Assembly: GCF_000730165.1 (NCBI RefSeq)
Contig: NZ_CP022112.1
Span: 1 to 64,000, forward strand
Origin: Nitrospirillum viridazoti CBAmc
GTDB taxonomy: Bacteria > Pseudomonadota > Alphaproteobacteria > Azospirillales > Azospirillaceae
Length of the DNA stretch: 64,000 bases
Direction of reading: 5' to 3'
The first letter of the stretch is position 1; each line of letters begins with the position of its first letter. Positions 6,262 through 18,639 of this stretch are shown piece by piece. The notes under the pieces were generated by a model. That model ran no database searches. It had not been told where the DNA came from and saw only the letters and a list, made by a program, of their open reading frames with translations. A program made the position numbers and the translations under genes.

Positions 6262-9200
6262 TCAGGCACGAAAGGCGCGCAGCCGGTCGGCCGCGGTGGC
6301 GCTCAGGCTGGCGCCGATCATCGACGGGATGACCAGTGTCACGGTGGTGCCCTGTCCCAGCACGCTGTCGACGGTCAGGTTGCCCTTCAGCCGCTGGGTC
6401 ACGTGGTTGTAGGCCACGTGCAGGCCCAGGCCGGGATGGCCGCGGCCGCGGGCGGTGGTGAAGAAGGGGTCCAGGATGTGGGGCAGCACCTCGGCGGGAA
6501 TGCCCCGCCCGTTGTCGGTCACGGAAATCAGCACCACGCCGCCCTCGGCCGAGGCCGTGACCGTCACATGGCCGTGGGCGCCGGGATCGAAGGCATGGTC
6601 GGCGGTGTTGGCCAGGATGTGCGTCAGGGCGTTGACCAGTGATTCCGGCACCGTGGGCACCACCAGGCCGTAGGGCACGTCCACAGTCAGCTCGATGGCG
6701 CCCTGGGCCAAGGCGGTCCGCGCCACGTTGGCCACATCGGGAAGCAGGGTGGACAGGTCGACCTCCGTCACCTTGCTTTCGCCGTCCTCCGCCGCGATGG
6801 CGGTGAAGCTCTTCACCAGGGCCGCCGTGCGCTTGGTGTTGCGTTCCACCAGGTCGGCCAGGTCGGACCATTCCTCCAGCCCGGTTTCCAGGGCGTTGCG
6901 GGTCAGCTTGCCCTGGGCGATGTTGTCGCGCACATCCTCCAGGCTGCCGCGCAGGCTGCCGGCGGCGGTCAGCACCACGCCCAGGGGGGTGTTGACCTCA
7001 TGCGCCACGCCGGCCACCAGGCGGCCCAGCGAGGCCATCTTTTCCTGCTGGATCAGCTTGGACTGGGTGGTGCGCAGATCCGCCAGGGCCTGGGCCGTTT
7101 CCATCCAGGCGGTTTCGGCGCGGCGATAGGATTCCGCGTTTTCCAGGGCGATGGCGCTATAGGCGCACAGCGTGCGGAAGATCATCTGCTCCCGGTCGCC
7201 ATAGGCATGGTCGGCGACCACCACCAGCACGCCCAGCACGCGGTTTTCCACCACCAGCGGATAGGCCAGCGCCACGCCGTCCTCCACCGTCTCCGTCAGC
7301 TCCTGCCGGCTTTGCGCCGCGCGGGCGGGTAAGGAGACCGGATCATCCAGGTAGACCGGCTCGACAGCACTGCCGTCGGCGGTGGCGGGTTCCAGGTACG
7401 ATCCCTGCAGGCGGTACAGCACCAGGCGGTGGCCGGTCAGCAACTCACCCACATAGCGCTTCAGCGTGCTCAGCACCGCGTCCAGAATCAGGGTGGCGGT
7501 GATGTCCTGCCCGGCATCACCCAGGCGGCGCAGGATGGCGGCGGACTGGGTCAGGGCGGCGTTGGCTTCCGTCAGTTCCACCGTGCGCTGCGCGACCACG
7601 GCCTCCAGCTCCTGCTGGCGGCGGCGCAGGATGGCGGTGCGGCCCCGCACCAGCAGGCCGACGGCCCCGGCCAGGGCGACGATGCCCAGCATCTGCGCCC
7701 ACCAGGTCTGGTACCAGGCGGGCAGGATGGCCAACGGCACCGTCAGCTCCGCCGTCGACCATTGGCCGCTGCGGTTGCTGCCCCGCACCCGCAGGGTATA
7801 ATTGCCGGGCGGCAGATTGGTGTAGGCGATCTGCCGCCAGTTGCCGTCGATTTCGAGCCAGTCGCGGTCCAACCCTTCCAGCTTGTAGGCGTAGCGGTTG
7901 CGTTCCGGGGCGGAGAAATCCAGCGAGGCGACCTCCAGGCGGAAGCCGTGGTCGTCCGGATGGATCGTCAGGGGCGTGGTGGTGTGGGCCACCTGCGACC
8001 CCGGAATCTGCCGCCGGCCGATATAGGCCTGGGTCACCACCACCGGCGGCACATAGGTCCAGTCCGCCAGCAGGCGCGGGTGGATCAGGGTGACGCCGTC
8101 CTCCGCCCCGAACAGGATTTCACCGTTGGGGCCCTTGGCGACGGACGTGGACCAGTGGGTGGTCAACCACACGCCGTCCGACCGCTGGAAGGGGCGGATG
8201 GCCATGGTGATGGGATCGATACGCACGACCCCGGTATCGGTGGACACCCAGATGAAGCCGTCCTCGTCCTGCGCCACGGCGTTGGCGGTGGCCAGCAAGG
8301 GCTCCACGTCGCTGGCCAGGAACTTCACAGGCCGCCGGCCGTTGGCGTCCGGCTTGCTGATCATGGCGACGCCCTGGCCGTAGATGGTGGCCCATAGCCG
8401 GCCCTGGCGGTCGGTGGCCAGCGACGCGATATTGTGGCTGGTCAGGGTGGTGGGGTTGCCGCTGTCCAGGTCGATCTTCTGGACCGTGCCGCTGTCGATG
8501 CCGGCCAGGTAGAGGCCACTGTAGGTGCCGATCCACAGGTCATGGTTATCTGCCAGTTGCAGCACCGTGATGCGCTGATCCTGCAGGCCGCCGGTACCCT
8601 GGCCCAGCGGGCGGGCGGTTCCCGCGGCGGGATTGTAGGCCCAGACGCCGACGTTGGAATCGCCGATCCACAGTTGTGTCCCATCCCACTGCAGGCTGGA
8701 GATGTTCAGGGCGGCATCCAGCCCCGGCACCCGTGTCAGATGCACGGCCCCGGCGCTGAGGTCGGTGCGGTACAGGCCGTCGCGGGTGCCGATCCACACC
8801 GTGCCGTTCTGCTGAACCGCGAAGGACCGGGCCACCTTGGCCGGCAGCGCGTGTTCGGGGTTGCCGGGGTCGGAGGCCAGGTGGGAAACCAGCTGCCCCG
8901 AAGCGTCCAGGACGTCCACGCCGCCCCGGCCGCGACCCAGCCACAGCTTGCCGTCCGGCGTGACCATCAGCGAATGGGCGCTGCGGTCTTCGGTCTGGGG
9001 GGTAGAGGAGATGGGAGTAAGGAAGCGGAAAGCCTGGGCGGAAGGGTCGAAGCGGCACAGGCCGGGATAGGTTCCCACCCAGACCAGGCCCGCCTTGTCC
9101 TTGTACAGCGACAGGATGTTATCGTTCAGCAGGCTGTCCGGAACCGTGCGGTTGCGTTTGATGGCCTTGGCACCGCCGCTGGCCAAATCCACCTCCAGCA

Positions 9201-10131
9201 AACCGTCGCCCATGGTGCCGACCCAGAAGACGTCGGGTTGCACCTCGAGGATGGCCTTGACCCAGTCGCCGGCCACGCCGGCGAAGGGTGCCGGCACGGT
9301 CTGGAACTGCGGCTCGCCCGCCTTATCGACCTGCAGCAGCAGCACGCCGTGGCGGCTGGTGCCCAGCCACAGGCGGCCGTGGCCGTCTTCGTACAGGGTG
9401 GTGACGCCATCCATGGCCGCGGACCGCGGCAGGGTGAGGCTGCGAAATTCCGTCTGGCCCGGCGGCAGATAGGCCAGGCCGTTGGCCGTTCCCACCCACA
9501 GATATCCCAGATGGTCGCGCTTCAGCGCCTGGATCTTGTCGCCCACCACGCCACCCGCCGGATTGTCGGCGCCGTGCAGGTGCGTGGCCGGTTCCTGGTT
9601 GGCGGACAGGTGGTCAAGGCCGCCCTCGGTTCCCACCCATAGGCCGCCGGCCCCGTCATCCTCGATGCTTCGGACGTCGATATGGCTCATCGTATCCAGC
9701 GGCACGCGCACGAACCGGTCGGTGGCGGCGTCGTAGCGCACCAGGCCGGCGGCGCTGGTGCCCACCCACAACCGCCCTTGGACGTCGGTGTGCAGGGTGC
9801 GGATGTTGCTGTCGGGCAGGCCATAGGGCCCGGTGGACCCGCCGCCATAGGATTTGAAGCGATAGCCATCGAAGCGCGCCAGGTCGCCGGCGGTGCCCAC
9901 CCACAGGAAGCCCTCACGGTCCTGCTGAATGGCCGTGATGTATTCGATGCTTTTGCCTTTGTCTTCGTTGTACCGGGTGAACAGATCGATGACCGAATTA
10001 CGCCACATCTCGGCGGCACGCGCCGGCGCGGCGGAGAGAATTGGTAAACAGACGGCGATCAGTACGCCAGCGCGCCCGATTTTATTGAGCGATCTTCCAA
10101 TTTCCTGAACGAAATTCAGCATGAGGCTCAT
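6262..10131 (-). CDS. Sensor histidine kinase with periplasmic propeller domain
   Basis: About 1,289 residues. A signal peptide/anchor ending 'LSAAPARAAEMW' is followed by a two-component-regulator-type beta propeller (about residues 40-690) with many 'GxLWVGTxxGLxRYD' blades, a Y_Y_Y domain (about 720-790), a membrane segment near 805-825, a coiled linker, a GAF-like region (about 870-1000) and the kinase core. The phospho-accepting His is about residue 1044 in 'GVAHEVNTPLG'; the ATPase motifs are 'LANTADHAF', 'VTDNGRGIPAE' and 'GHPGLGLHVAYN'. There is no receiver domain and no response regulator nearby. The kinase half is close to that of the gene at 13812. Start uncertain among TTG 10143, ATG 10131 and ATG 10122. 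Confidence 0.9.
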   Translation of the reverse strand: MSLMLNFVQEIGRSLNKIGRAGVLIAVCLPILSAAPARAAEMWRNSVIDLFTRYNEDKGKSIEYITAIQQDREGFLWVGTAGDLARFDGYRFKSYGGGSTGPYGLPDSNIRTLHTDVQGRLWVGTSAAGLVRYDAATDRFVRVPLDTMSHIDVRSIEDDGAGGLWVGTEGGLDHLSANQEPATHLHGADNPAGGVVGDKIQALKRDHLGYLWVGTANGLAYLPPGQTEFRSLTLPRSAAMDGVTTLYEDGHGRLWLGTSRHGVLLLQVDKAGEPQFQTVPAPFAGVAGDWVKAILEVQPDVFWVGTMGDGLLEVDLASGGAKAIKRNRTVPDSLLNDNILSLYKDKAGLVWVGTYPGLCRFDPSAQAFRFLTPISSTPQTEDRSAHSLMVTPDGKLWLGRGRGGVDVLDASGQLVSHLASDPGNPEHALPAKVARSFAVQQNGTVWIGTRDGLYRTDLSAGAVHLTRVPGLDAALNISSLQWDGTQLWIGDSNVGVWAYNPAAGTARPLGQGTGGLQDQRITVLQLADNHDLWIGTYSGLYLAGIDSGTVQKIDLDSGNPTTLTSHNIASLATDRQGRLWATIYGQGVAMISKPDANGRRPVKFLASDVEPLLATANAVAQDEDGFIWVSTDTGVVRIDPITMAIRPFQRSDGVWLTTHWSTSVAKGPNGEILFGAEDGVTLIHPRLLADWTYVPPVVVTQAYIGRRQIPGSQVAHTTTPLTIHPDDHGFRLEVASLDFSAPERNRYAYKLEGLDRDWLEIDGNWRQIAYTNLPPGNYTLRVRGSNRSGQWSTAELTVPLAILPAWYQTWWAQMLGIVALAGAVGLLVRGRTAILRRRQQELEAVVAQRTVELTEANAALTQSAAILRRLGDAGQDITATLILDAVLSTLKRYVGELLTGHRLVLYRLQGSYLEPATADGSAVEPVYLDDPVSLPARAAQSRQELTETVEDGVALAYPLVVENRVLGVLVVVADHAYGDREQMIFRTLCAYSAIALENAESYRRAETAWMETAQALADLRTTQSKLIQQEKMASLGRLVAGVAHEVNTPLGVVLTAAGSLRGSLEDVRDNIAQGKLTRNALETGLEEWSDLADLVERNTKRTAALVKSFTAIAAEDGESKVTEVDLSTLLPDVANVARTALAQGAIELTVDVPYGLVVPTVPESLVNALTHILANTADHAFDPGAHGHVTVTASAEGGVVLISVTDNGRGIPAEVLPHILDPFFTTARGRGHPGLGLHVAYNHVTQRLKGNLTVDSVLGQGTTVTLVIPSMIGASLSATAADRLRAFRA

Positions 10132-10280
10132 CTTATACGTCAAACGGCGGCGTCAGGGTAATGACCGATCAGTCTGTCGCGATATGTGCCTCCCGGTAAA
10201 ACGGGGCCTTGGCAAGCCAGGCCGGATACGATGCCGTACCCAGACTTTCTGCCAAGACCCCGCAGTAATTTCACCTGCTT

Positions 10281-11681
10281 TTATTCTGCGGAGACGTTCT
10301 GGTCCTGCACGTCTTCGACCGAAACGTTCTGATCCTGAACGTCCTCAACGGACACGTTCTGATCCTGGACGTCTTCGGTGGAGACGTTCTGATCCTGGAC
10401 ATCCTCCGTGGAGACGTTCTGATCCTGAACGTCCTCGGTGGAGACGTTCTGGTCCTGCACGTCTTCCGTGGATACATTCTGATCCTGGACGTCCTCGGTG
10501 GAGACGTTCTGGTCCTGAACGTCTTCCGTGGAGACGTTCTGATCCTGGACATCCTCGGTCGAAACGTTCTGGTCCTGAACCTCTTCGACGGCGGCGACGA
10601 CCTTCACCGGCGTTGCCGGCTTGGCGAAGGCGGCCAGCCAGCGCTGCTCATCGGCGTTCAGCGCGCCGAAGCTGGTGACATAGCGCACCGGATCGGCACG
10701 GAAGGACTGGGCTGCGTCGGGGTCCAGGGCGATCTGCTGCATGGCCTTGAAGTAGGCGTTGGACATCACCGGCGGAGTGGACGGCACCAGGGTGATGGGG
10801 GCGGACTCTGCCGCCGGCACGGGCAGGGGCTTGCCCACCATGGCGCTGATGCCCAGCCGCTCCGCCATGGCCATGTCGTTGTCCAGGCTGTCCTTGGGGG
10901 GGATGTACAGGGTGCTGGCCTTGCTCAGCCGCTTCAGGTTGGCGGGGTCGCGGTACGCGCCCAGCTTCAGGCGGCGCAGCACGGGCTTCTGCCCCGGGCG
11001 GGTGGCGCCGACATAGTCCACGCAGGGGTGGTTCTCGCCATAGATCTCGATCAGGCGCTCGAACAGGATGGCGCGACGCTCCAGGTTGTCGGTCACCGGG
11101 CGGAACAGGTCGCCCACCGGGCCCACCTGCATCAGCACGACGTGCCCGCTGGTCACCAGCGGCCGGTTGCGCAGCAGGAAGTCGGTGGCCTCCATGGCCT
11201 GGTAACCGGACTGGCTGGGGTCCACGCGCAGGTCGGCGAACAGGTAGTCCAGCGACGACACGCCCGGCAGCAGGCAGGTGTCATAGCCCTCGGCCTTGGC
11301 GGTGGTCAGGGCCAGGCGGGCGGGGGCGACGTAGAAGCCGGGGTGGCCGTAGAACACGCCGGTCACGCGGCGGCCGGACCGCACCTCGGCCACCATCACC
11401 TCGGCCATCTGCACATAGGTCAGGCTGCGGCGCTTGTCCGCGCCATACAACGTGGTGAGGTCGATGACGTTGGGGTTGAGGGCGTGCAGGTCGGCCAGCA
11501 TCAGCGGATCGCGGATGCAGTGGAACACGACGTCGGCGTGGCGGATGTGGCCCTCGGCTTCACGGGTCAGGTGCCCCAGCGCCTGGATGCCCGTGCCCAC
11601 AATGGCCAGGCTGCCGCTGGATTGTTTCGCTTTGGTTTCAGTCAGGATCGCTTGGGTGTCCGCAATTCTGGTGTCCGGCAT
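10281..11681 (-). CDS. Borosin-like alpha-N-methyltransferase fused to a repeat-bearing C-terminus
   Basis: 466 residues. Residues about 24-265 form a tetrapyrrole-methylase-fold SAM methyltransferase: 'AIVGTGIQALGHLTREA' for SAM binding, 'TLYGADKRRSLTYVQMAE', 'FYGHPGFYVAP', 'LPGVSSLDYLFADLRVDP' and 'EATDFLLRNRP'. These are characteristic of borosin RiPP methyltransferases (OphMA/SonM type), which methylate peptide backbone amides; Y79, R85, Y89 and Y111 have the spacing I recall for that active site. Residues about 305-355 ('ALDPDAAQSFRADPVRYVTSFG') resemble the helical precursor-binding domain. Residues 368-466 are ten repeats of VQDQNVSTED, the likely substrate region. ATG 11681 has a GGGGG site five or six bases upstream; ATG 11693 is an alternative. 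Self-modification is inferred. Confidence 0.82.
   Translation of the reverse strand: MPDTRIADTQAILTETKAKQSSGSLAIVGTGIQALGHLTREAEGHIRHADVVFHCIRDPLMLADLHALNPNVIDLTTLYGADKRRSLTYVQMAEVMVAEVRSGRRVTGVFYGHPGFYVAPARLALTTAKAEGYDTCLLPGVSSLDYLFADLRVDPSQSGYQAMEATDFLLRNRPLVTSGHVVLMQVGPVGDLFRPVTDNLERRAILFERLIEIYGENHPCVDYVGATRPGQKPVLRRLKLGAYRDPANLKRLSKASTLYIPPKDSLDNDMAMAERLGISAMVGKPLPVPAAESAPITLVPSTPPVMSNAYFKAMQQIALDPDAAQSFRADPVRYVTSFGALNADEQRWLAAFAKPATPVKVVAAVEEVQDQNVSTEDVQDQNVSTEDVQDQNVSTEDVQDQNVSTEDVQDQNVSTEDVQDQNVSTEDVQDQNVSTEDVQDQNVSVEDVQDQNVSVEDVQDQNVSAE
10284..10580 (-). repeat. Ten tandem 30-bp coding repeats
   Basis: Ten in-frame units encode VQDQNVS[T/V/A]ED at the C-terminus of the methyltransferase; the last unit ends ...NVSAE before the stop. 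Units differ almost only at synonymous positions (GTG/GTC/GTT for Val, GAC/GAT for Asp), so the peptide is conserved while the DNA has diverged. The first seven carry Ser-Thr, the next two Ser-Val and the last Ser-Ala. Confidence 0.95.
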
Positions 11682-11849
11682 CACTACCCCCATCGGTTGA
11701 GTTTGTAGTTGGGCAGATAAGCTACCAGTCTACAATCAGAACGGGTAGATGGAATATGGCATCCGGACAGAATCCCCCATCGCGCAGGGGGCGCGAGGGC
11801 AGGTGCAACAGGGCGAGAGGGTCCATGTCAATGGTGCGTTAATGGACCT

Positions 11850-13613
11850 TTGCAATCGGGTGGAGAGTTGGATGATAGTGCCTCGGCTACCGCCTATCCG
11901 CAGACCAGGGGCGCTTCGTTGTTTGATTTCGGCTTTTCCCGAGTGTGGCCGCGCCACGCGTTCGCCGGCCTTGTCCTCGTCTGTCTGGCAATCGGGGCTT
12001 CCGCCGCATGGTCCGACCAAGCACATGCGGCGGGCAAGGCGGAGTCTGTGGTGTCTACAGCTGTTATCGGTAGCTGGCCGGTGAGCCTGCACCCGCTTCA
12101 AGGCGACGAGTTCGGCCACGTCATGGCGAAGCGCTTCGTCAACCGGCCACTTCTGGAAGCCGGCCCGGGCGGACTGACGTGCGTTTATTGCGTCTCGGTT
12201 CCCTCCGTGGCCGATGGTTCCTTGCGGACGGTGCGCGATTCGGATGGAACCTGGATCACGGTCGCGCGCTACATCATGCGTCCGGATGTGCGATGGGCTG
12301 ACGGTGTCGCCATGACGACGGCTGACGTCGCATTTACCTGGGAGGTCTTGACAAGCACCGGCCGCGGCCTAGCGGACTCTGACCAGCGCATCATCAACGT
12401 GAAGTCAATTCAGGTGATTGATGAGCGGCGGTTCGACGTCGTTTACACGGGCTCCGCCTGTAGCGACCAGCTCTCAGTGCCGCCATTGCTCCCGGCTCAT
12501 TTGGAAAAGCCGATTTGGCAATCCAACCCAGCGGAATACTTCTCAAACTCGCTTTACCGTACGAAGCCAGGCACCCCGGGTCTTTATAGTGGTCCGTATC
12601 GGGTGGTGGCCGCCGACGGCACAACCTTGCATCTTGAGGAGAATATTTACTGGCCGGGGCAAAAGCCTGCCTATGGAAAAGTCGACCTTCTGGTTCCGGC
12701 CAACCAGGCCGCCCTTGAAACCGCCGTCCGCGCTGGAAAGGTGGATGTTTTCACCACCCTTACCTTTGATGTCGGCAGCCGGCTGGCCAGGGATCTGACC
12801 AATGCCTACAACGCTTTTTACGCGCCGTCCGATTTCCTGGTCCACCTGAAGGTGAATTTCACTAACCCCATCCTTTCCGACTTACGGGTCAGGAAGGCCT
12901 TGTTATTCAGCCTGAACCGCGACGCCCTGGTGAGTTCGGTTTTGGAGGGGAAGGGGACCGTCGCTCAAAGCCTGTTAAGTCCCTTCATGCCCGGATATGC
13001 TCCGGTCAGCCGGTATCCGTTCAATCTCACCAAGGCCAACCAATTGCTCGACGCCGCTGGTTGGGTCAGGGGGCGTGACGGCATGCGCCATAACATATCC
13101 GGCGTGCCTCTACGGTTTGAGCTGCGATATAGGGGAAACCATCCCTGGCCCCAATTGGCGCCGCGCCTCGCGGAGGCTTGGCAGGCCGTTGGCGCGCAAG
13201 TCGACCTAGTGGAAGACGCCGCCCTGTCTGGCGATGCCGTGGATACGACCCAGCGGTATTCCGGACTTGTCGGTTTCTCCCAGTCTTTGGAAGGGGGGTT
13301 GGAAGCCGCCAGATTCTGGTTCCATTCGACGATGATCCCGAACGCCGCCAACGGCAAGCGGGGGAATAACTATTTCGCCGTGCGGATCAAGACGCTGGAT
13401 GACGCCCTGGATCATTTGACCCAGGCGGGCTGTGCCGTTGATCCCCGGCGCGACGCGCTGACGGAGGTTCAAAAGGCTTATGCGGATGATTTGCCGGCGT
13501 TGCCGCTGTGGTTCGGCACGGTGATCACGTTGGCGAACAAGCGCATTGACGGTGCGGTGGATGCGCGCACCTTCGCGTCGGCGCCTGTGGAGTATTGGCA
13601 CCCACGGCTGTGA
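11850..13613 (+). CDS. Periplasmic peptide-binding protein (SBP_bac_5 family), solitary
   Basis: Up to 587 residues of the family-5 extracellular solute-binding fold used for oligopeptides and similar ligands. Seen: a hydrophobic export signal 'FAGLVLVCLAIGASAAWSDQAHAA', 'TVARYIMRPDVRWADGVAMTTADVAFTWEVL', 'HLKVNFTNPILSDLRVRKALLFSLNRDALV', and 'AQSLLSPFMPGY', all standard for DppA/OppA relatives. No permease or ATPase genes adjoin it. The frame opens at TTG 11850; TTG 11868 has a GGAG just upstream and GTG 11943 would begin right at the signal peptide, so the start is uncertain. It is divergent from the borosin-like gene and precedes a sensor kinase, so it might present peptides to that kinase, which is inference. 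Confidence 0.82.
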   Translation: MQSGGELDDSASATAYPQTRGASLFDFGFSRVWPRHAFAGLVLVCLAIGASAAWSDQAHAAGKAESVVSTAVIGSWPVSLHPLQGDEFGHVMAKRFVNRPLLEAGPGGLTCVYCVSVPSVADGSLRTVRDSDGTWITVARYIMRPDVRWADGVAMTTADVAFTWEVLTSTGRGLADSDQRIINVKSIQVIDERRFDVVYTGSACSDQLSVPPLLPAHLEKPIWQSNPAEYFSNSLYRTKPGTPGLYSGPYRVVAADGTTLHLEENIYWPGQKPAYGKVDLLVPANQAALETAVRAGKVDVFTTLTFDVGSRLARDLTNAYNAFYAPSDFLVHLKVNFTNPILSDLRVRKALLFSLNRDALVSSVLEGKGTVAQSLLSPFMPGYAPVSRYPFNLTKANQLLDAAGWVRGRDGMRHNISGVPLRFELRYRGNHPWPQLAPRLAEAWQAVGAQVDLVEDAALSGDAVDTTQRYSGLVGFSQSLEGGLEAARFWFHSTMIPNAANGKRGNNYFAVRIKTLDDALDHLTQAGCAVDPRRDALTEVQKAYADDLPALPLWFGTVITLANKRIDGAVDARTFASAPVEYWHPRL

Positions 13614-13811
13614 GGGCGGTTGGGCCAGCCCAGCGTGGTCAGGGCTGGGGTGGGCTGCTTATTTTCTGAGCGGCGGCATCAACATGGTGATCTCCTAAGG
13701 CAATGTGGCGACGATCGCCAGTCGTTAAATAACTCTGTGACGCAACTGGTGCGGGTGCTATGACCGTAGCTCCATGAAGGCTGTGGCAGCGGTCTCCAAA
13801 AAGCCAGGCGG

Positions 13812-15923
13812 GTGACAGAATTGGGAGCACTGGTGCGGGGCGATAGCGTCGATATGGGCCGGCGGGACGCCGGCGTCCTGGCACCGTTGCGACAGGGCGC
13901 GCGCATCCGGGCGACCTTGCGCATCCTTCTGCCAGTTCTGGCGGCGGGGTTCCTGATGGTCGCCCTTTTTGGAACCGGCGAACGGACCCTTTACCGCCTG
14001 ACCGGCGCCATCGATCAGATCGTCGACCGGAACCTGGCCAGCAGCGTCAAGCTGTCGGATATCAATACACGGGTCCAGGCGGTGAACGCGCGTTTCAACC
14101 GGCTGCTGGCGGTCAAGTCGGCCGGGCGGCAAGCCATCGATGTGTCGATCGAATTGGGGGCGATCACGGCGCAGGTCGATCTCCTGGCCGCTGATCTGGA
14201 ATCTTATCGCGACCTGTACGCCACGCCCGACCAGCGGCCGCGCGTGGACGAAATCCTCCACAACTTGGCTGATTATAAAGGTGCCGTCGCCTGGGTCGGT
14301 TCCATGCTGAGCATAGATTTCGCCAGCACGGTAAGTTTCATCGAGCCTTTTGGGGCCGTGTTCGGCCGTATGCAGGTCGATCTGAATCAGATCGTCATGG
14401 AAACCGGCAAGGACGCCCAGTCCAAGGCGGAGGAGGCGACCCGGCAAGCCGCTGAAACGGTTCGCACCTTCCTGTATTCGGCGGTGGCGGTCATGCTTGG
14501 CGTGGCGATACTGGCCTGGTTGATCGGCCGGTATCAACAGCGCCTGCGCATCAATTCCGAATTGCTGCAGCAACAGGTGGAGGCGCGTACGGCGGAACTG
14601 CGTCAGGCGAATAGCGATCTGGCTGACTCGGCGGAAATTTTACGGCAATTGGGTGATGCCGGCCGGGCGCTGACGGCCACTCTAGACTTGGCCGAAGTGC
14701 ACGACGCGCTTCACCAGCATTTGGCCGATCTTATCCCGATGGATGCCTTTGGTATTGCCCGGCGGTCAGGGGATGGCCGGGAGCTGTTGTTCGATCGCTT
14801 CATCCTGCACGGCGTCCCTATTTCCATTGCCCCTCGGGCCCTGTCCGTTATCAACGAACCAGCCGCCCGGGCCCTTAACCAGGAGAAGGAGGTCCTGATC
14901 CAGGGGGAGGAGGCGCAGCGATGGGCGGCGGCCATTAGCCCCGGTGGATTGGATGGTGGGCCGATCCAGGCCGCCATATGGTGCCCGCTGGTGGTCTCCG
15001 GCCGCGTGCTGGGGCTCATCACCGCCCAAAGCAGGGACATCGATGCCTATGGCCAGCGGACCGCCGAGGTTCTGCGGTCAGCATGCGCCTATGCAGCCAT
15101 CGCCATCGCCAATGCATGTTCCTATAATGAATTGGAAGCGACGCTGGCGGAGTTGCGGGCGACTCAGGACAAGCTCGTCCAACAGGAGAAGATGGCGTCA
15201 CTCGGCCGCTTGGTCGCCGGCGTGGCGCATGAGATCAACACGCCCTTGGGCATCGTATTGACGGCTGCGGGAAGTCTGCATGGCGGGGTCGCGGATCTAA
15301 AAGCCGCGATGGGCCAGGGCAGGCTGACGCGTGCCGCCCTTGAGCAAGGTATTGCCGAATGGAGCGACTTGGCGATGGTCGTGGAACGCAATGCCGTCCG
15401 CACCGCGACCTTGGTCAAAAGTTTTTCCGCCGTTGCCGTTGCCGAGGGCGACGGCCGTATCCTGGATACCGATCTGTCCATTTTGCTGACGGATGTGGTC
15501 GCTCTTTTCCGGCCCGCTTTCGACAGGGGCGGTATTCGTCTGACTCTTGAAATAGAAGATGGGCTGTGCATACGCACGGTGCCGGAGCTGCTGACGGATG
15601 CTTTGACGCGCATTCTGGCGAATACCGTTGACCATGCCTTTTCAGCCCGGCAGGGCGGCGAGGTTACGGTTTCCGTGGTGATGGATACTTTTGGCAGTGT
15701 GGTCTTGACGGTCGTAGACAATGGCCGTGGCATTCCCGCCGACGTGCTTGCTCATGTATTTGAACCCTTTTTTACGACGGCTCGTGGCAGCGGCCACCCG
15801 GGATTGGGGCTGCACGTCGCCTTCAACCAGGTGACGCAGCGGCTAAAAGGCAGATTGGTGGTGGCGAGCGAAGCGGAGGGTGGAACCCACGTGACGATTC
15901 AAATACCGCCACTAACAGCATAA
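13812..15923 (+). CDS. Membrane sensor histidine kinase
   Basis: 703 residues. Membrane segment about 36-56 ('ILLPVLAAGFLMVALFG'), a helical periplasmic sensor of about 160 residues, a second membrane segment about 219-240, a coiled linker, a GAF-like domain about 285-435, then the kinase core. Phospho-accepting His473 lies in 'GVAHEINTPLGIVLTAAGSL'; ATPase motifs 'LANTVDHAF', 'VVDNGRGIPADVL', 'GHPGLGLHVAFNQVTQRLKG'. From the linker on it is a clear paralogue of the kinase at 6262-10131, but the input domain differs. No response regulator is adjacent. GTG 13812 follows an AGGCGG; ATG 13854 is possible. It lies between the peptide-binding protein and the RiPP precursor genes. Confidence 0.9.
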   Translation: MTELGALVRGDSVDMGRRDAGVLAPLRQGARIRATLRILLPVLAAGFLMVALFGTGERTLYRLTGAIDQIVDRNLASSVKLSDINTRVQAVNARFNRLLAVKSAGRQAIDVSIELGAITAQVDLLAADLESYRDLYATPDQRPRVDEILHNLADYKGAVAWVGSMLSIDFASTVSFIEPFGAVFGRMQVDLNQIVMETGKDAQSKAEEATRQAAETVRTFLYSAVAVMLGVAILAWLIGRYQQRLRINSELLQQQVEARTAELRQANSDLADSAEILRQLGDAGRALTATLDLAEVHDALHQHLADLIPMDAFGIARRSGDGRELLFDRFILHGVPISIAPRALSVINEPAARALNQEKEVLIQGEEAQRWAAAISPGGLDGGPIQAAIWCPLVVSGRVLGLITAQSRDIDAYGQRTAEVLRSACAYAAIAIANACSYNELEATLAELRATQDKLVQQEKMASLGRLVAGVAHEINTPLGIVLTAAGSLHGGVADLKAAMGQGRLTRAALEQGIAEWSDLAMVVERNAVRTATLVKSFSAVAVAEGDGRILDTDLSILLTDVVALFRPAFDRGGIRLTLEIEDGLCIRTVPELLTDALTRILANTVDHAFSARQGGEVTVSVVMDTFGSVVLTVVDNGRGIPADVLAHVFEPFFTTARGSGHPGLGLHVAFNQVTQRLKGRLVVASEAEGGTHVTIQIPPLTA

Positions 15924-16044
15924 GAAATCCTCCTCCTATGAGGGCGCTGTGCTTATGTTTGACACCCATTAAGGACTATGTCGCCCACGATATATAGTAT
16001 AAGATGCATAATAATTTGCCTTATGCGTGAAAGATGAGGGGAAA

Positions 16045-16293
16045 ATGACACAATTTTTGCGTGAAATGTCTCCCGAGGATGTACAGAAGGTCCTGGGACG
16101 GGCGCTGTTGGAGCCCGGTTTCCGTAAGCAGTTCCTGGCTGACATCCCGGGGACGCTTGCCACGCTTGGCTTCAAGGCCTCGCCCGAAGCCCTAGCTTTC
16201 TTCGCCAAGCTGGGAAACCAGCCTTTCAGCGATGCCGCCAGCGATATCGAGGGCTTCTTCGCGGCCAATCCGCTGCCCAATTCCTGGTTCTGA
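16045..16293 (+). CDS. RiPP precursor peptide candidate A
   Basis: 82 residues. The leader-like part 'SPEDVQKVLGRALLEPGFRKQFLADIPGTLATLGFKASPEALAFFAKL' resembles the helical leaders of the NHLP/Os1348-type precursor clan. It is followed by an acidic linker and the C-terminus 'AANPLPNSWF', a plausible core. ATG 16045 is preferred over the in-frame GTG 16027 because GAGGGG stands a few bases upstream. The next genes are a second, shorter paralogue and a radical SAM RiPP maturase on the same strand. Family membership is from pattern recognition; that the C-terminal residues are modified is inference. Confidence 0.75.
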   Translation: MTQFLREMSPEDVQKVLGRALLEPGFRKQFLADIPGTLATLGFKASPEALAFFAKLGNQPFSDAASDIEGFFAANPLPNSWF

Positions 16294-16310
16294 CAGTCCT
16301 ACAGATAAGT

Positions 16311-16330
16311 GCCCGCTCTAAGCGGCGGGC
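16311..16330 (+). terminator. Small hairpin between precursor genes
   Basis: GCCCGC...GCGGGC with an eight-base loop, 17 bases after the stop of precursor A and without a T-run. It could protect the precursor mRNA end or partly terminate, giving more precursor than enzyme. Confidence 0.35.
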
Positions 16331-16442
16331 GCAATCTTCAACATATTAGCATGATTGGCGTTAGTCATTCAGATGAATCCGCCTGTGGTTTTGGCTTTCG
16401 CGTGCTCTTAGCGGGTGAACCAAAAGATCGGGAGATACTTCT

Positions 16443-16607
16443 ATGCCGCAAATCGTTGCTGATCATGTTAAGTCAAGTCTGGCAGACTTGGGTTTTTCCG
16501 CTTCCGAGGCGAGCGAAGCTTTCCTCCGAGCTTTTAGAGAGCGCGACCTTCAAGATGAGGAAGCGCCGCCCGCTGCGAACCTTCCGATTCCCAGTGTCTG
16601 GTACTGA
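16443..16607 (+). CDS. RiPP precursor peptide candidate B (54 aa)
   Basis: A 54-residue frame starting at an ATG with GGGAG about nine bases upstream. Residues 13-31, 'LADLGFSASEASEAFLRAF', align with 'LATLGFKASPEALAFFAKL' of candidate A, and its last residues, 'AANLPIPSVWY', align with 'AANPLPNSWF'. It lacks the first leader helices of A. Both peptides end P-x-P-x-x-W-[F/Y]. It sits between A and the radical SAM gene, 80 bases before the latter. The shared ends on different backbones strongly suggest a duplicated precursor with a conserved core. Confidence 0.72.
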   Translation: MPQIVADHVKSSLADLGFSASEASEAFLRAFRERDLQDEEAPPAANLPIPSVWY

Positions 16608-16686
16608 TTTGATCATGGGCGACGCGCCCTAGTGAGGAAACTCAATAGGACGCATCGCTTGGTTTAAGAGATTTCAGGGCGCGCGC

Positions 16687-18639
16687 ATGGCCGATGGATC
16701 GGGAATGATGAAGGCCGGTGACGGCCGCACCCTGCTGGTGGCCATGCCCGTCGCCGCCCTGCATTATCCCGTCATCGGTCTGTCCCTGCTGAAGGGCGCG
16801 CTGGCCCGCCAGGGCTTGGCGGCGGATATCCGCCACTTCTACCTGGACTTCGCCGACTATATCGGCTTCGACGCCTATGCCGCGGTGGAGGACAGCCGTT
16901 ATTTCCTGGCCATGGTGGGGGACTGGGTGTTCGCCGGTGCCGCTCATGGTGCGCCAGAGAGGGAGCCTTTCACCTTCCTGAATGGCCTGATGACGGGGGA
17001 ATATGGCCGCTATTTCGGGCCGCAACGCCTGATGGGCATCCTGGCCGCCCGCAACAAGGCGGAGGGCTTCATCGAGCATTGTTTCGGCCTGGTCGACTGG
17101 TCGCGCTATGCCGTCGTGGGCTTCTCCACCTCCTTCCAGCAGACCATGGCCTCGCTGGCGCTGGCGCGGCGCATCAAGGCGGCGCACCCCCACATCCTGA
17201 TCGTCTTCGGCGGCGCCAATTGCAGCGACGAGATGGGGGTGGAGCTGCACCGCCGCTATCCGTTCATCGACGTGGTCGTGGGGGGCGAGGCGGAGGAGGT
17301 GCTGCCCGAGCTGGTGCGTCGCCACGCGGCGGGGCTGGATCTGGCCGGCTTGCCGGGCAGCACCATCCGCGCCGCCGACGGGACGACCCTTCCGGCCACC
17401 GTGCCCGCGGGCATGATCACCGACATGGATAGCCTGCCGCCCCTGGACTATGCTGATTTCTATGCTGACCGGGCGCGCCTGCCGGCGGTGGCTGAGCGTT
17501 TCCCGGCCTTTCCCCTGTTCGAAAGCGCCCGGGGCTGCTGGTGGGGGCAGAAACACCATTGCACCTTCTGCGGGCTGAACGGCCTGGGCATGGCCTACCG
17601 CAGCAAGAGCCAGGATCGCGCCTTTACCGAGCTGACGGACGTGGCCGACCGCTTCGGGCGTGAGATCATGGTGGTCGACAACATCCTGGACAGCCGCTAC
17701 TTCGGCGACTTCCTGCCCCGCCTGGCGGCGCTGGACCGGCCGCTGCTGCTGCATTACGAGGTCAAGGCCAACCTGCGCGCGGGCCAGCTGGCCCTGCTGG
17801 GGCAGGCCGGGGTGCGCAAGATCCAACCGGGCGTGGAATCGCTCAGCACCCCGGTGCTGGCCCTGATGCGCAAGGGAACCACCCTGTTGCGCAACGTCCA
17901 GACCCTGCGCCTGGCGGCAGAGGCGGGCGTGCTGGTGGACTGGTCCCACCTCTATGGCTTCCCGGGGGAGACGGCGGCCCATTACCACGCCGCGGCGGCG
18001 GTGGTGCCCAAGATCACCCACCTGCATCCGCCCGGCGGCCTCCACCGGGTGCGCGCCGACCGTTTCAGTCCTTACTTCAACACGCCGGCGGCCTTCGGCG
18101 TCACCATCCGTCCCGTGCCCGGCTACAGCCACATATTCCCCCACGACGAGGATGGCACCGCGCGCCTAGCCTATCACTTTGACATGACGCCCGAGCGGCC
18201 GGACGAGGATTTGGCGGCTGGTCATGCCGCCCTGGCCGCTCAGCTGGACCTATGGCGCCGGGGCGACGCGACGTTGACCCTGACGCCGGCCAATGACGGC
18301 ACGGCGGTGGTGGAGGATGGCCGGGGTGCCACCCCCCGGCGACACGCGCTGACTGCCGTCGCCGCGGCGGTGCTGGATGCCTGCGCCGAAATCCAGGGTG
18401 CCGGCCCGCTGCTGAAGACCTTGGCACCCCGCTTTGGCGAGGCCGCCGTCACCGCGGCGGTGGCGGAGCTGGAGGCGCTGGCCCTGCTGCTGCGCGAGGG
18501 CGATGAACTGTTGGCCCTGCCGTTGCGCCAGCCGGGCTTCGACCGCGCCCCCCGGCATGAGGAGATCCGCACCTCTTGGGGGCGTTCCTACTTCCATCAT
18601 GCCCAGGCGGCGGCGCGGATGCCGGAACCGGTCGTCTGA
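16687..18639 (+). CDS. B12-binding radical SAM RiPP maturase (RiPP maturation radical SAM protein 1 type)
   Basis: 650 residues. An N-terminal cobalamin-binding-like domain ('LLVAMPVAALHYPVIGLSLLKGAL...', 'VVVGGEAEEVLPELV') precedes the radical SAM barrel, with the cluster cysteines 284, 292 and 295 in 'RGCWWGQKHHCTFCGLNG'. Further family marks are 'MVVDNILDSRYF', 'KIQPGVESLSTPVLALMRKGTT' and 'WSHLYGFPGET'. The residues after about 500 form a variable C-terminal region. Proteins with this CWWG...HCTFCGLNG motif are RiPP maturases, commonly C-methyltransferases. The substrate is most likely the two small peptides encoded just upstream. The exact chemistry cannot be read from sequence. AGGG lies about eight bases before ATG 16687. 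Confidence 0.9.
   Translation: MADGSGMMKAGDGRTLLVAMPVAALHYPVIGLSLLKGALARQGLAADIRHFYLDFADYIGFDAYAAVEDSRYFLAMVGDWVFAGAAHGAPEREPFTFLNGLMTGEYGRYFGPQRLMGILAARNKAEGFIEHCFGLVDWSRYAVVGFSTSFQQTMASLALARRIKAAHPHILIVFGGANCSDEMGVELHRRYPFIDVVVGGEAEEVLPELVRRHAAGLDLAGLPGSTIRAADGTTLPATVPAGMITDMDSLPPLDYADFYADRARLPAVAERFPAFPLFESARGCWWGQKHHCTFCGLNGLGMAYRSKSQDRAFTELTDVADRFGREIMVVDNILDSRYFGDFLPRLAALDRPLLLHYEVKANLRAGQLALLGQAGVRKIQPGVESLSTPVLALMRKGTTLLRNVQTLRLAAEAGVLVDWSHLYGFPGETAAHYHAAAAVVPKITHLHPPGGLHRVRADRFSPYFNTPAAFGVTIRPVPGYSHIFPHDEDGTARLAYHFDMTPERPDEDLAAGHAALAAQLDLWRRGDATLTLTPANDGTAVVEDGRGATPRRHALTAVAAAVLDACAEIQGAGPLLKTLAPRFGEAAVTAAVAELEALALLLREGDELLALPLRQPGFDRAPRHEEIRTSWGRSYFHHAQAAARMPEPVV

Follow-up and report, generated by a model that had tools for sequence, protein, structure and literature searches.

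Analysis of a 64,000-nucleotide stretch of the Nitrospirillum viridazoti CBAmc genome (contig NZ_CP022112.1, positions 1 to 64,000; hereafter the window) revealed a locus for a ribosomally synthesized and post-translationally modified peptide (RiPP). Two short related precursors, A and B, are followed by a predicted B12-dependent radical S-adenosylmethionine (SAM) C-methyltransferase and preceded by a periplasmic peptide-binding protein (SBP5) and a histidine kinase (HK1). Sequence comparison within the genus indicated that the precursors and the SBP5-HK1 pair appear to have been exchanged between strains as one unit, whereas the methyltransferase and the flanking genes were not. The locus is real, lies within known enzyme and leader families and carries a testable signalling hypothesis: a small RiPP signalling system, consisting of a C-methylated heptapeptide signal and a co-inherited receptor, which we consider evenly balanced between right and wrong. 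The features of the locus are as follows.

11801..16800, no strand: exchanged block SBP5-HK1-A-B (identity profile against genome G003)
11850..13613, + strand: SBP5, orphan periplasmic peptide-binding protein (SBP_bac_5), 587 aa as called (Pfam, 155.1 bits)
13812..15923, + strand: HK1, histidine kinase, 703 aa (Pfam, hydropathy)
16045..16293, + strand: precursor A, ATG at 16045, stop at 16291-16293, 82 aa, Os1348/NHLP-clan leader, end AANPLPNSWF
16270..16290, + strand: proposed core of A, PLPNSWF (alignment of precursors)
16443..16607, + strand: precursor B, ATG at 16443, stop at 16605-16607, 54 aa, end AANLPIPSVWY
16584..16604, + strand: proposed core of B, PIPSVWY (alignment of precursors)
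16687..18639, + strand: predicted B12-dependent radical SAM C-methyltransferase, TIGR03975 (rSAM_ocin_1), 650 aa (profile match)
17536..17571, + strand: CX7CX2C cluster motif CWWGQKHHCTFC, residues 284-295 (alignment of relatives)
18220..18552, + strand: C-terminal winged-helix domain, residues 512-622, candidate leader-binding domain resembling a RiPP recognition element (model)

Apparent exchange of the precursors with SBP5 and HK1

All seven Nitrospirillum genomes compared (CBAmc and G001 to G006, the last being N. iridis) carry related precursors at the same place and show the identical order SBP5-HK1-precursor(s)-enzyme. SBP5 gave one match per genome at E <= 1e-60 (48-98% identity outside CBAmc), HK1 adjoins it in each genome, and the enzyme is present in all seven (83-97% identity outside CBAmc). 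The array is flanked by a borosin-like gene on one side and by genes resembling sugar utilisation by eye on the other.

Comparison of the CBAmc locus with that of G003 revealed a sharply bounded block. DNA identity is 94-99% before 11801 and 86-96% after 16800, and lies at 39-79% in every 200-base step between them; at about 11.8 kb it falls from 94% to 70%, and near the enzyme start, between 16.6 and 16.8 kb, it climbs back from 74% to 88%. Between these two genomes the synonymous divergence (dS) within the cassette is 2.24 for SBP5, 1.55 for HK1 and 0.99 for A, compared with 0.11 for the borosin-like gene, 0.22 for the enzyme, 0.23 for PGM and 0.21 for KP outside it. Cassette dS is at least 0.87 or saturated in every genome pair with a value, except CBAmc/G002. 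Nonsynonymous (dN) and synonymous divergence were obtained with a simple script for the Nei-Gojobori method (NG86); saturation affected several cassette pairs, and no value was obtained for the borosin-like gene against G005.

The SBP5 and HK1 tree joins G003, G004 and G005 (support 100/100), and the tree of the flanks and the enzyme (borosin-like gene, enzyme and sugar genes) joins CBAmc, G002 and G003 (100/100). In approximately unbiased (AU) tests, each of the two groupings was rejected by the other set of data (p 1e-10 and 1.5e-31), on trees of seven rows and with groups chosen after the identities had been seen. The gene HK2 was excluded from the flank set, since its overlap with the CBAmc locus amounts to just 47 codons and it is itself fast-diverging. 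Precursor A follows the cassette, being 93% identical between G003 and G004 and 76% between CBAmc and G003. The conflicting trees, the dS contrast and the pattern of A suggest that the precursors and the peptide-binding protein and kinase were exchanged together and the modifying enzyme was not.

SBP5 possesses a hydrophobic signal-like segment (residues 37-55) and its best solved relative is 2d5w, a peptide-binding protein. It lies between the borosin-like gene and HK1 and has no ABC permease genes beside it, and SBP5 is predicted to be a ligand receptor. HK1 has two transmembrane-like segments (36-54 and 220-238) flanking a presumed periplasmic region of about 165 aa, followed by GAF, HisKA and HATPase domains; the HisKA match is below the Pfam cut-off and no receiver domain was listed in the Pfam scan. 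The arrangement known from pheromone and receptor pairs, a signal gene adjacent to and co-inherited with a sensor kinase, was found here. An earlier reading of this DNA, made from the sequence only, had overlooked the SBP5-HK1 pair; its inheritance with the precursors points to signalling.

A related protein and kinase pair at a second RiPP locus

Outside the genus, 19 matches to SBP5 at E <= 1e-60 were found in 18 of 52 relatives, and HK1 was present beside the distant SBP5 at two of the five loci tested among these 19 matches (about 1.5 kb beside each). A lanthipeptide-like operon was observed in another genus of the same family (L202:1942-11607, and L201, L227, L228 and L229). It consists of a repeat peptide (AQP[QG]TIS[FLA])n, a HopA1+APH protein, a LanC-like protein and an S8 protease, followed by the SBP-HK pair. 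This end of the operon was found at 5/5 fetched loci long enough to show it (two found first and three later; one repeat gene is cut by a contig end), and on a sixth, cut contig the S8 end, SBP and HK are present. The pair stands in the same order as in CBAmc, with 33-34% identity for the SBP and 41-43% for the kinase. The SBP and the HopA1/APH synthetase gene are both present in seven and both absent in four of the 11 related genomes of this genus. The locus scored over the Pfam cut-offs for HopA1 (96.9 bits) and LANC_like (140.4 bits). The HopA1/APH protein scored 40.4 against the class V profile LxmK, whose cut-off is 315; since this match is far below the cut-off, class V-like denotes a likeness and not membership.

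The proposed signalling system and its alternatives

Sequence data support the coding, homology, conservation and linkage of these genes, and a four-step system may be proposed on them. Firstly, as homology and conservation suggest, A and B would be translated into precursors that have half of the leader (LGFxAS...) in common and end in a core of seven residues: P[LI]PxxW and a final position that is mostly F or Y. Secondly, the TIGR03975 enzyme, judging from its family, would C-methylate the core using methylcobalamin and SAM; the leader would perhaps be held by the C-terminal winged helix. Thirdly, the leader would be removed by an enzyme, and the heptapeptide exported by proteins, encoded elsewhere; no gene for this step was found. 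Finally, as the linkage suggests, SBP5 would bind the mature peptide in the periplasm and switch HK1, as LuxP switches LuxQ. The two variable core positions before the tryptophan and the divergent SBP5 would set specificity, in which case strains would exchange signal and receptor as one cassette and share one modifying enzyme.

A broader version is offered tentatively, at somewhat short of an even chance. Relatives of Azospirillum would possess a general RiPP-reception module, a dedicated peptide-binding protein with a histidine kinase, that serves at least two unrelated RiPP classes. Within Nitrospirillum the module would take the form of exchangeable pherotype cassettes for a C-methylated PxPxxW heptapeptide, that is, modified-peptide quorum sensing in a Gram-negative bacterium.

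The linkage pattern itself would also arise if a toxin-like gene were exchanged with a matching partner gene. The product may then be an antimicrobial or kin-discrimination RiPP, with SBP5 and HK1 sensing envelope stress or other cues, or giving immunity, and travelling with the precursor for that reason; the several cores in the one genome of N. iridis suit this explanation. We regard it as somewhat unlikely, as the locus shows no recognisable immunity or transporter gene and a periplasmic peptide-binding protein with a kinase is the architecture of a sensor.

It is also conceivable, though fairly unlikely in our estimate, that the RiPP locus is real and SBP5 and HK1 are mere neighbours, the block having diverged through chance recombination tracts. 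One tract could cover everything from SBP5 to B, and HK1-like kinases occur without such partners. The order kept in all seven genomes, the high or saturated cassette dS described above, and the association with a second RiPP class, concordant in 11/11 genomes, argue against mere proximity.

Several observations weigh against the signalling system. Within HK1, the presumed periplasmic part is not the most variable: residues 31-280 are 72-98% identical and greater variation is seen in the GAF region, which would leave SBP5 to determine specificity. The locus showed no recognisable gene for a transporter, a protease or a response regulator. The exchange pattern is one of divergent alleles and is not measured diversifying selection, because the cassette dN/dS is low. 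The 11 concordant genomes of the second genus are related and are not independent trials. In Sinorhizobium kostiense, whose enzyme is the nearest found outside the genus (56% identity), the precursor and enzyme occur with no SBP5 or HK1 match within 13.9 kb. One locus over the TIGR03975 cut-off (L175) has no CX7CX2C motif. A tblastn search with ten query proteins of nine HK1-like loci of other genera (L218-L226, genus g5 included) found no adjoining SBP, enzyme, borosin-like or lanthipeptide gene; the search covered these kinds of gene only, and some of the contigs break off a short distance away. On this result the HK1-like kinases of other genera were set aside as RiPP partners.

The radical SAM enzyme

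The enzyme contains the motif CWWGQKHHCTFCGLNG and scored 591.6 bits against TIGR03975 (cut-off 281.85) over residues 16-613, which upholds the earlier description of a B12-type radical SAM maturase with a cysteine motif; the family is named as a RiPP C-methyltransferase. In Pfam, Radical_SAM is over the cut-off and B12-binding, at 31.2, just under its cut-off of 32.1. The family is rare, with matches at E <= 1e-60 in eight of 398 genomes of the phylum, CBAmc included. The CX7CX2C motif is invariant in 49 aligned relatives, partly by construction because CWWGQKHH was among the patterns used to retrieve them; it is also present in 6/8 loci outside CBAmc found by the TIGR03975 profile, one exception being an N-terminal fragment without that part.

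The AlphaFold model of the enzyme (mean predicted local distance difference test, pLDDT, 90.1) has TokK, OxsB, TsrM and CysS as its best PDB matches. The winged-helix domain (pLDDT 87.8) has the order b-b-b-a-a-a-b-b, and its best Foldseek match, the sactipeptide maturase 5why, is weak (E 0.022), with none at E <= 0.001.

We know of no TIGR03975 enzyme acting on a core of this kind, and family names are not tests, so the enzyme may carry out a chemistry other than C-methylation on the core. The strong family match, the CX7CX2C motif and the B12-methylase fold make this fairly unlikely, and C-methylation of the heptapeptide core is inferred from the family, by analogy. PoyB and PoyC of the polytheonamide pathway and the bottromycin methyltransferases share the CX7CX2C motif and are proposed to methylate Cbeta, PoyC acting on a valine residue, according to a review (PMC5682303). 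Because enzymes of the PoyC kind act on Cbeta, methylation here would be likelier at an sp3 carbon of Pro-Leu/Ile-Pro than at the tryptophan. The PoyB/PoyC type, the characterised comparison for this enzyme, also resembles the locus in its NHLP-type leader. It differs in that the precursors here are tiny with a heptapeptide end, and in that the locus showed no recognisable epimerase, dehydratase, GG site or transporter.

A second TIGR03975-like paralogue (34% identity) was observed in G005 (L038:5665-9914), behind two radical SAM-like genes, one of which was scanned and showed Radical_SAM and SPASM domains.

Precursors A and B and their leader

The sequence-only reading had proposed that the locus encodes a RiPP modified by a radical SAM enzyme, with two related precursors that share an LxxLGFxAS leader and near-identical termini. 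A, B and the enzyme were confirmed at the coordinates listed above, and both the common leader and the termini are visible in the sequence. Among 474 open reading frames (ORFs) of at least 40 aa in the window, the end P.P..W[FYWLD] occurs in A and B only. The ATG of A is preceded by a purine-rich, Shine-Dalgarno-like run (GAGGGGAAA-ATG), and a Shine-Dalgarno-like GGGAG lies eight bases 5' of the ATG of B. In the alignment of 15 precursors, P76 and W81 are invariant and P78 is nearly so. An A-seeded hidden Markov model (HMM) and the alignment show B to be homologous to the C-terminal two thirds of A; B and its relatives are shortened at the N-terminus and do not have the first part of the leader.

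Precursor A is under purifying selection by codon comparison (dN 0.03, dS 1.83 between G003 and G004), and its nine changes between CBAmc and G002 are all at third positions. For B the same pair of genomes gave dN 0.14 and dS 0.19, with 9/7/6 changes at the three codon positions; this comparison is uninformative and B is weaker than A on the selection test. Two N. iridis precursor copies differ by 7/4/16 changes. B was accepted because short relatives occur in four other genomes (G002, G003, G005 and N. iridis, with four copies), with in-frame ends kept and ribosome-binding sites. That B is a chance frame and A the sole precursor, as the lack of codon-position bias and a dN/dS near 0.76 between CBAmc and G002 might suggest, is highly improbable, since the B-type frames of all four genomes end in PxPxxW and start after purine runs, with ATG in all but one (TTG). 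An origin of A and B together by chance or annotation artefact was ruled out by the genus relatives, the kept ends and the absence of the motif from the other ORFs of the window.

Analysis of the leader revealed that A is, by its profile score, a member of the Os1348/NHLP clan: it scored 42.4 bits against NF038399 (Os1348 family; cut-off 40), and the A precursors of G006, G003 and G001 scored 49.0, 49.9 and 51.7. B gave no family match in the profile scan, NF038399 included. The classical NHLP/proteusin characters are absent by sequence from A and B. Against TIGR03793, the classical leader profile, A of CBAmc was not listed at E <= 1 and the best of four relatives scanned scored 19.8 (cut-off 50.9); neither A nor B has a double-glycine cleavage site before the core. 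GG occurs in two of the 15 precursors, namely N. iridis A (residue 57, well before the core) and S. kostiense (GGR directly before PVIGAWL). Among 385 genomes of the class, only CBAmc was over the NF038399 cut-off; at E <= 0.001 the profile matched 89 of the 385, many of the matches lying in 200-250 aa frames, as for nitrile hydratase. Elsewhere in the CBAmc genome (G000:C3:584438-587454), seven weak NHLP-clan matches lie within about 3 kb, perhaps another NHLP RiPP cluster.

The name Os1348 we take, as a reading of the name only, to refer to strain Os17. The Os1348/Pfl precursors of Pseudomonas sp. Os17 and P. fluorescens CH267 share an NHLP-type leader with those described here and likewise have no typical double-glycine site (PMC12636437). 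They differ in that HEXXH and MNIO-nitroreductase enzymes act there on a poly-Gln/ARMD end, in place of a B12 radical SAM enzyme and PxPxxW.

Distribution of the PxPxxW end

A total of 14 precursors were found in the seven genomes: two each in CBAmc, G002 and G003, one each in G001, G004 and G005, and five in N. iridis, four of them short. G001 and G004 have the A type only and G005 the B type only; plus-strand translations of short stretches adjoining these three precursors showed no further copy. Every one of the 14 closes with P[LI]PxxW followed by a single F, Y, L or D, a count that is not blind because the precursors were first picked by a motif scan and the A-seeded HMM; no genus homologue without the motif turned up. 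The conserved C-termini that had been expected in related loci are therefore present in the genus, and of the postulated P-x-P-x-x-W-[F/Y] core the part up to the tryptophan holds and the restriction of the last residue to F or Y does not. A profile built from the 14 precursors and that of S. kostiense, which the 14 match by construction, found no other copy elsewhere in the seven genomes; its match to B of CBAmc runs upstream over one stop.

The earlier reading had also proposed a search for short frames ending in PxPxxW[FY] beside this enzyme family. Frames with the PxPxxW end were found in 7/7 genomes of the genus; in other genera, 71 loci that hold relatives of the enzyme, S. kostiense among them, gave none in 6,441 ORFs. 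A general PxPxxW rule for TIGR03975 partners was thus ruled out, none of these 71 loci having such an ORF end and Ruegeria ending differently; the exact motif was found in one genus only and does not characterise the enzyme family at large. At E <= 1e-4 the precursor profile found nothing in 384 other genomes of the class, a maximum of 14 candidates being scored in each. It found one match, that of S. kostiense, in a set of 11 genomes selected by way of enzyme-relative loci; the precursor end there, RPVIGAWL, is a divergent relative of the motif. From these sequences the exact motif looks to be a genus trait with one divergent relative.

Upstream of the enzyme relatives in Rhodoblastus and Mesorhizobium (L086 and L081), frames ending in ...GVGIGVVW were observed, an unrelated candidate precursor type terminated by tryptophan.

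Comparison with other loci and neighbouring genes

The S. kostiense locus resembles that of CBAmc in having an 82-aa Os1348 precursor (62.6 bits) and differs in also having radical SAM/SPASM, Peptidase_C11 and patatin genes, the last two directly after the methyltransferase (L043:7913-10574). Clostripain cuts after arginine. The Peptidase_C11 protein is far below the NCBIfam clostripain cut-off; if clostripain-like, it would release PVIGAWL, seven residues, which fits a heptapeptide product by analogy. In a plasmid search the S. kostiense precursor matched Ruegeria only and its enzyme region had no match at the DNA level. In Ruegeria sp. B32 a precursor annotated as Os1348 family likewise stands directly before a TIGR03975 enzyme; it differs in its end, ...DGVIRPRCA, and no family-5 SBP or kinase is among the annotated names in 13.9 kb.

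The locus may be likened to ComQXPA and agr, in which precursor, modifying enzyme and kinase are adjacent and signal and receptor vary together, and SBP5-HK1 to LuxP-LuxQ, in which an SBP works with a kinase. By this analogy it would differ from them in its Gram-negative host, its predicted B12 radical SAM modification and a peptide SBP as the supposed receptor. Among the matches listed in the open-licence literature there was no work on this locus and none pairing Nitrospirillum with a RiPP.

The borosin-like gene (10281-11693, - strand; TP_methylase, 65.4 bits) resembles a borosin N-methyltransferase with a fused repeat core, its C-terminal tail having ten tandem decapeptides [TV]EDVQDQNVS. 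The repeat occurs in 8 to 12 copies in six genomes, and G005 has a different one (EELNEHNDV type). Behind it lies a large Reg_prop/Y_Y_Y histidine kinase (6262-10143, - strand), whose kinase part is like HK1 (46%) and which, when distant Nitrospirillum species are compared, diverges more rapidly than the rest of the flank genes.

Significance

To our knowledge, few members of the TIGR03975 methyltransferase family have been experimentally tested, and these precursors constitute a minimal testable substrate set, with up to five natural cores in one genome. The short precursors suggest that half a leader suffices. As far as we know, hardly any ribosomal peptide signals have been described in Gram-negative bacteria, and SBP5 is a concrete receptor candidate for a RiPP in this group.

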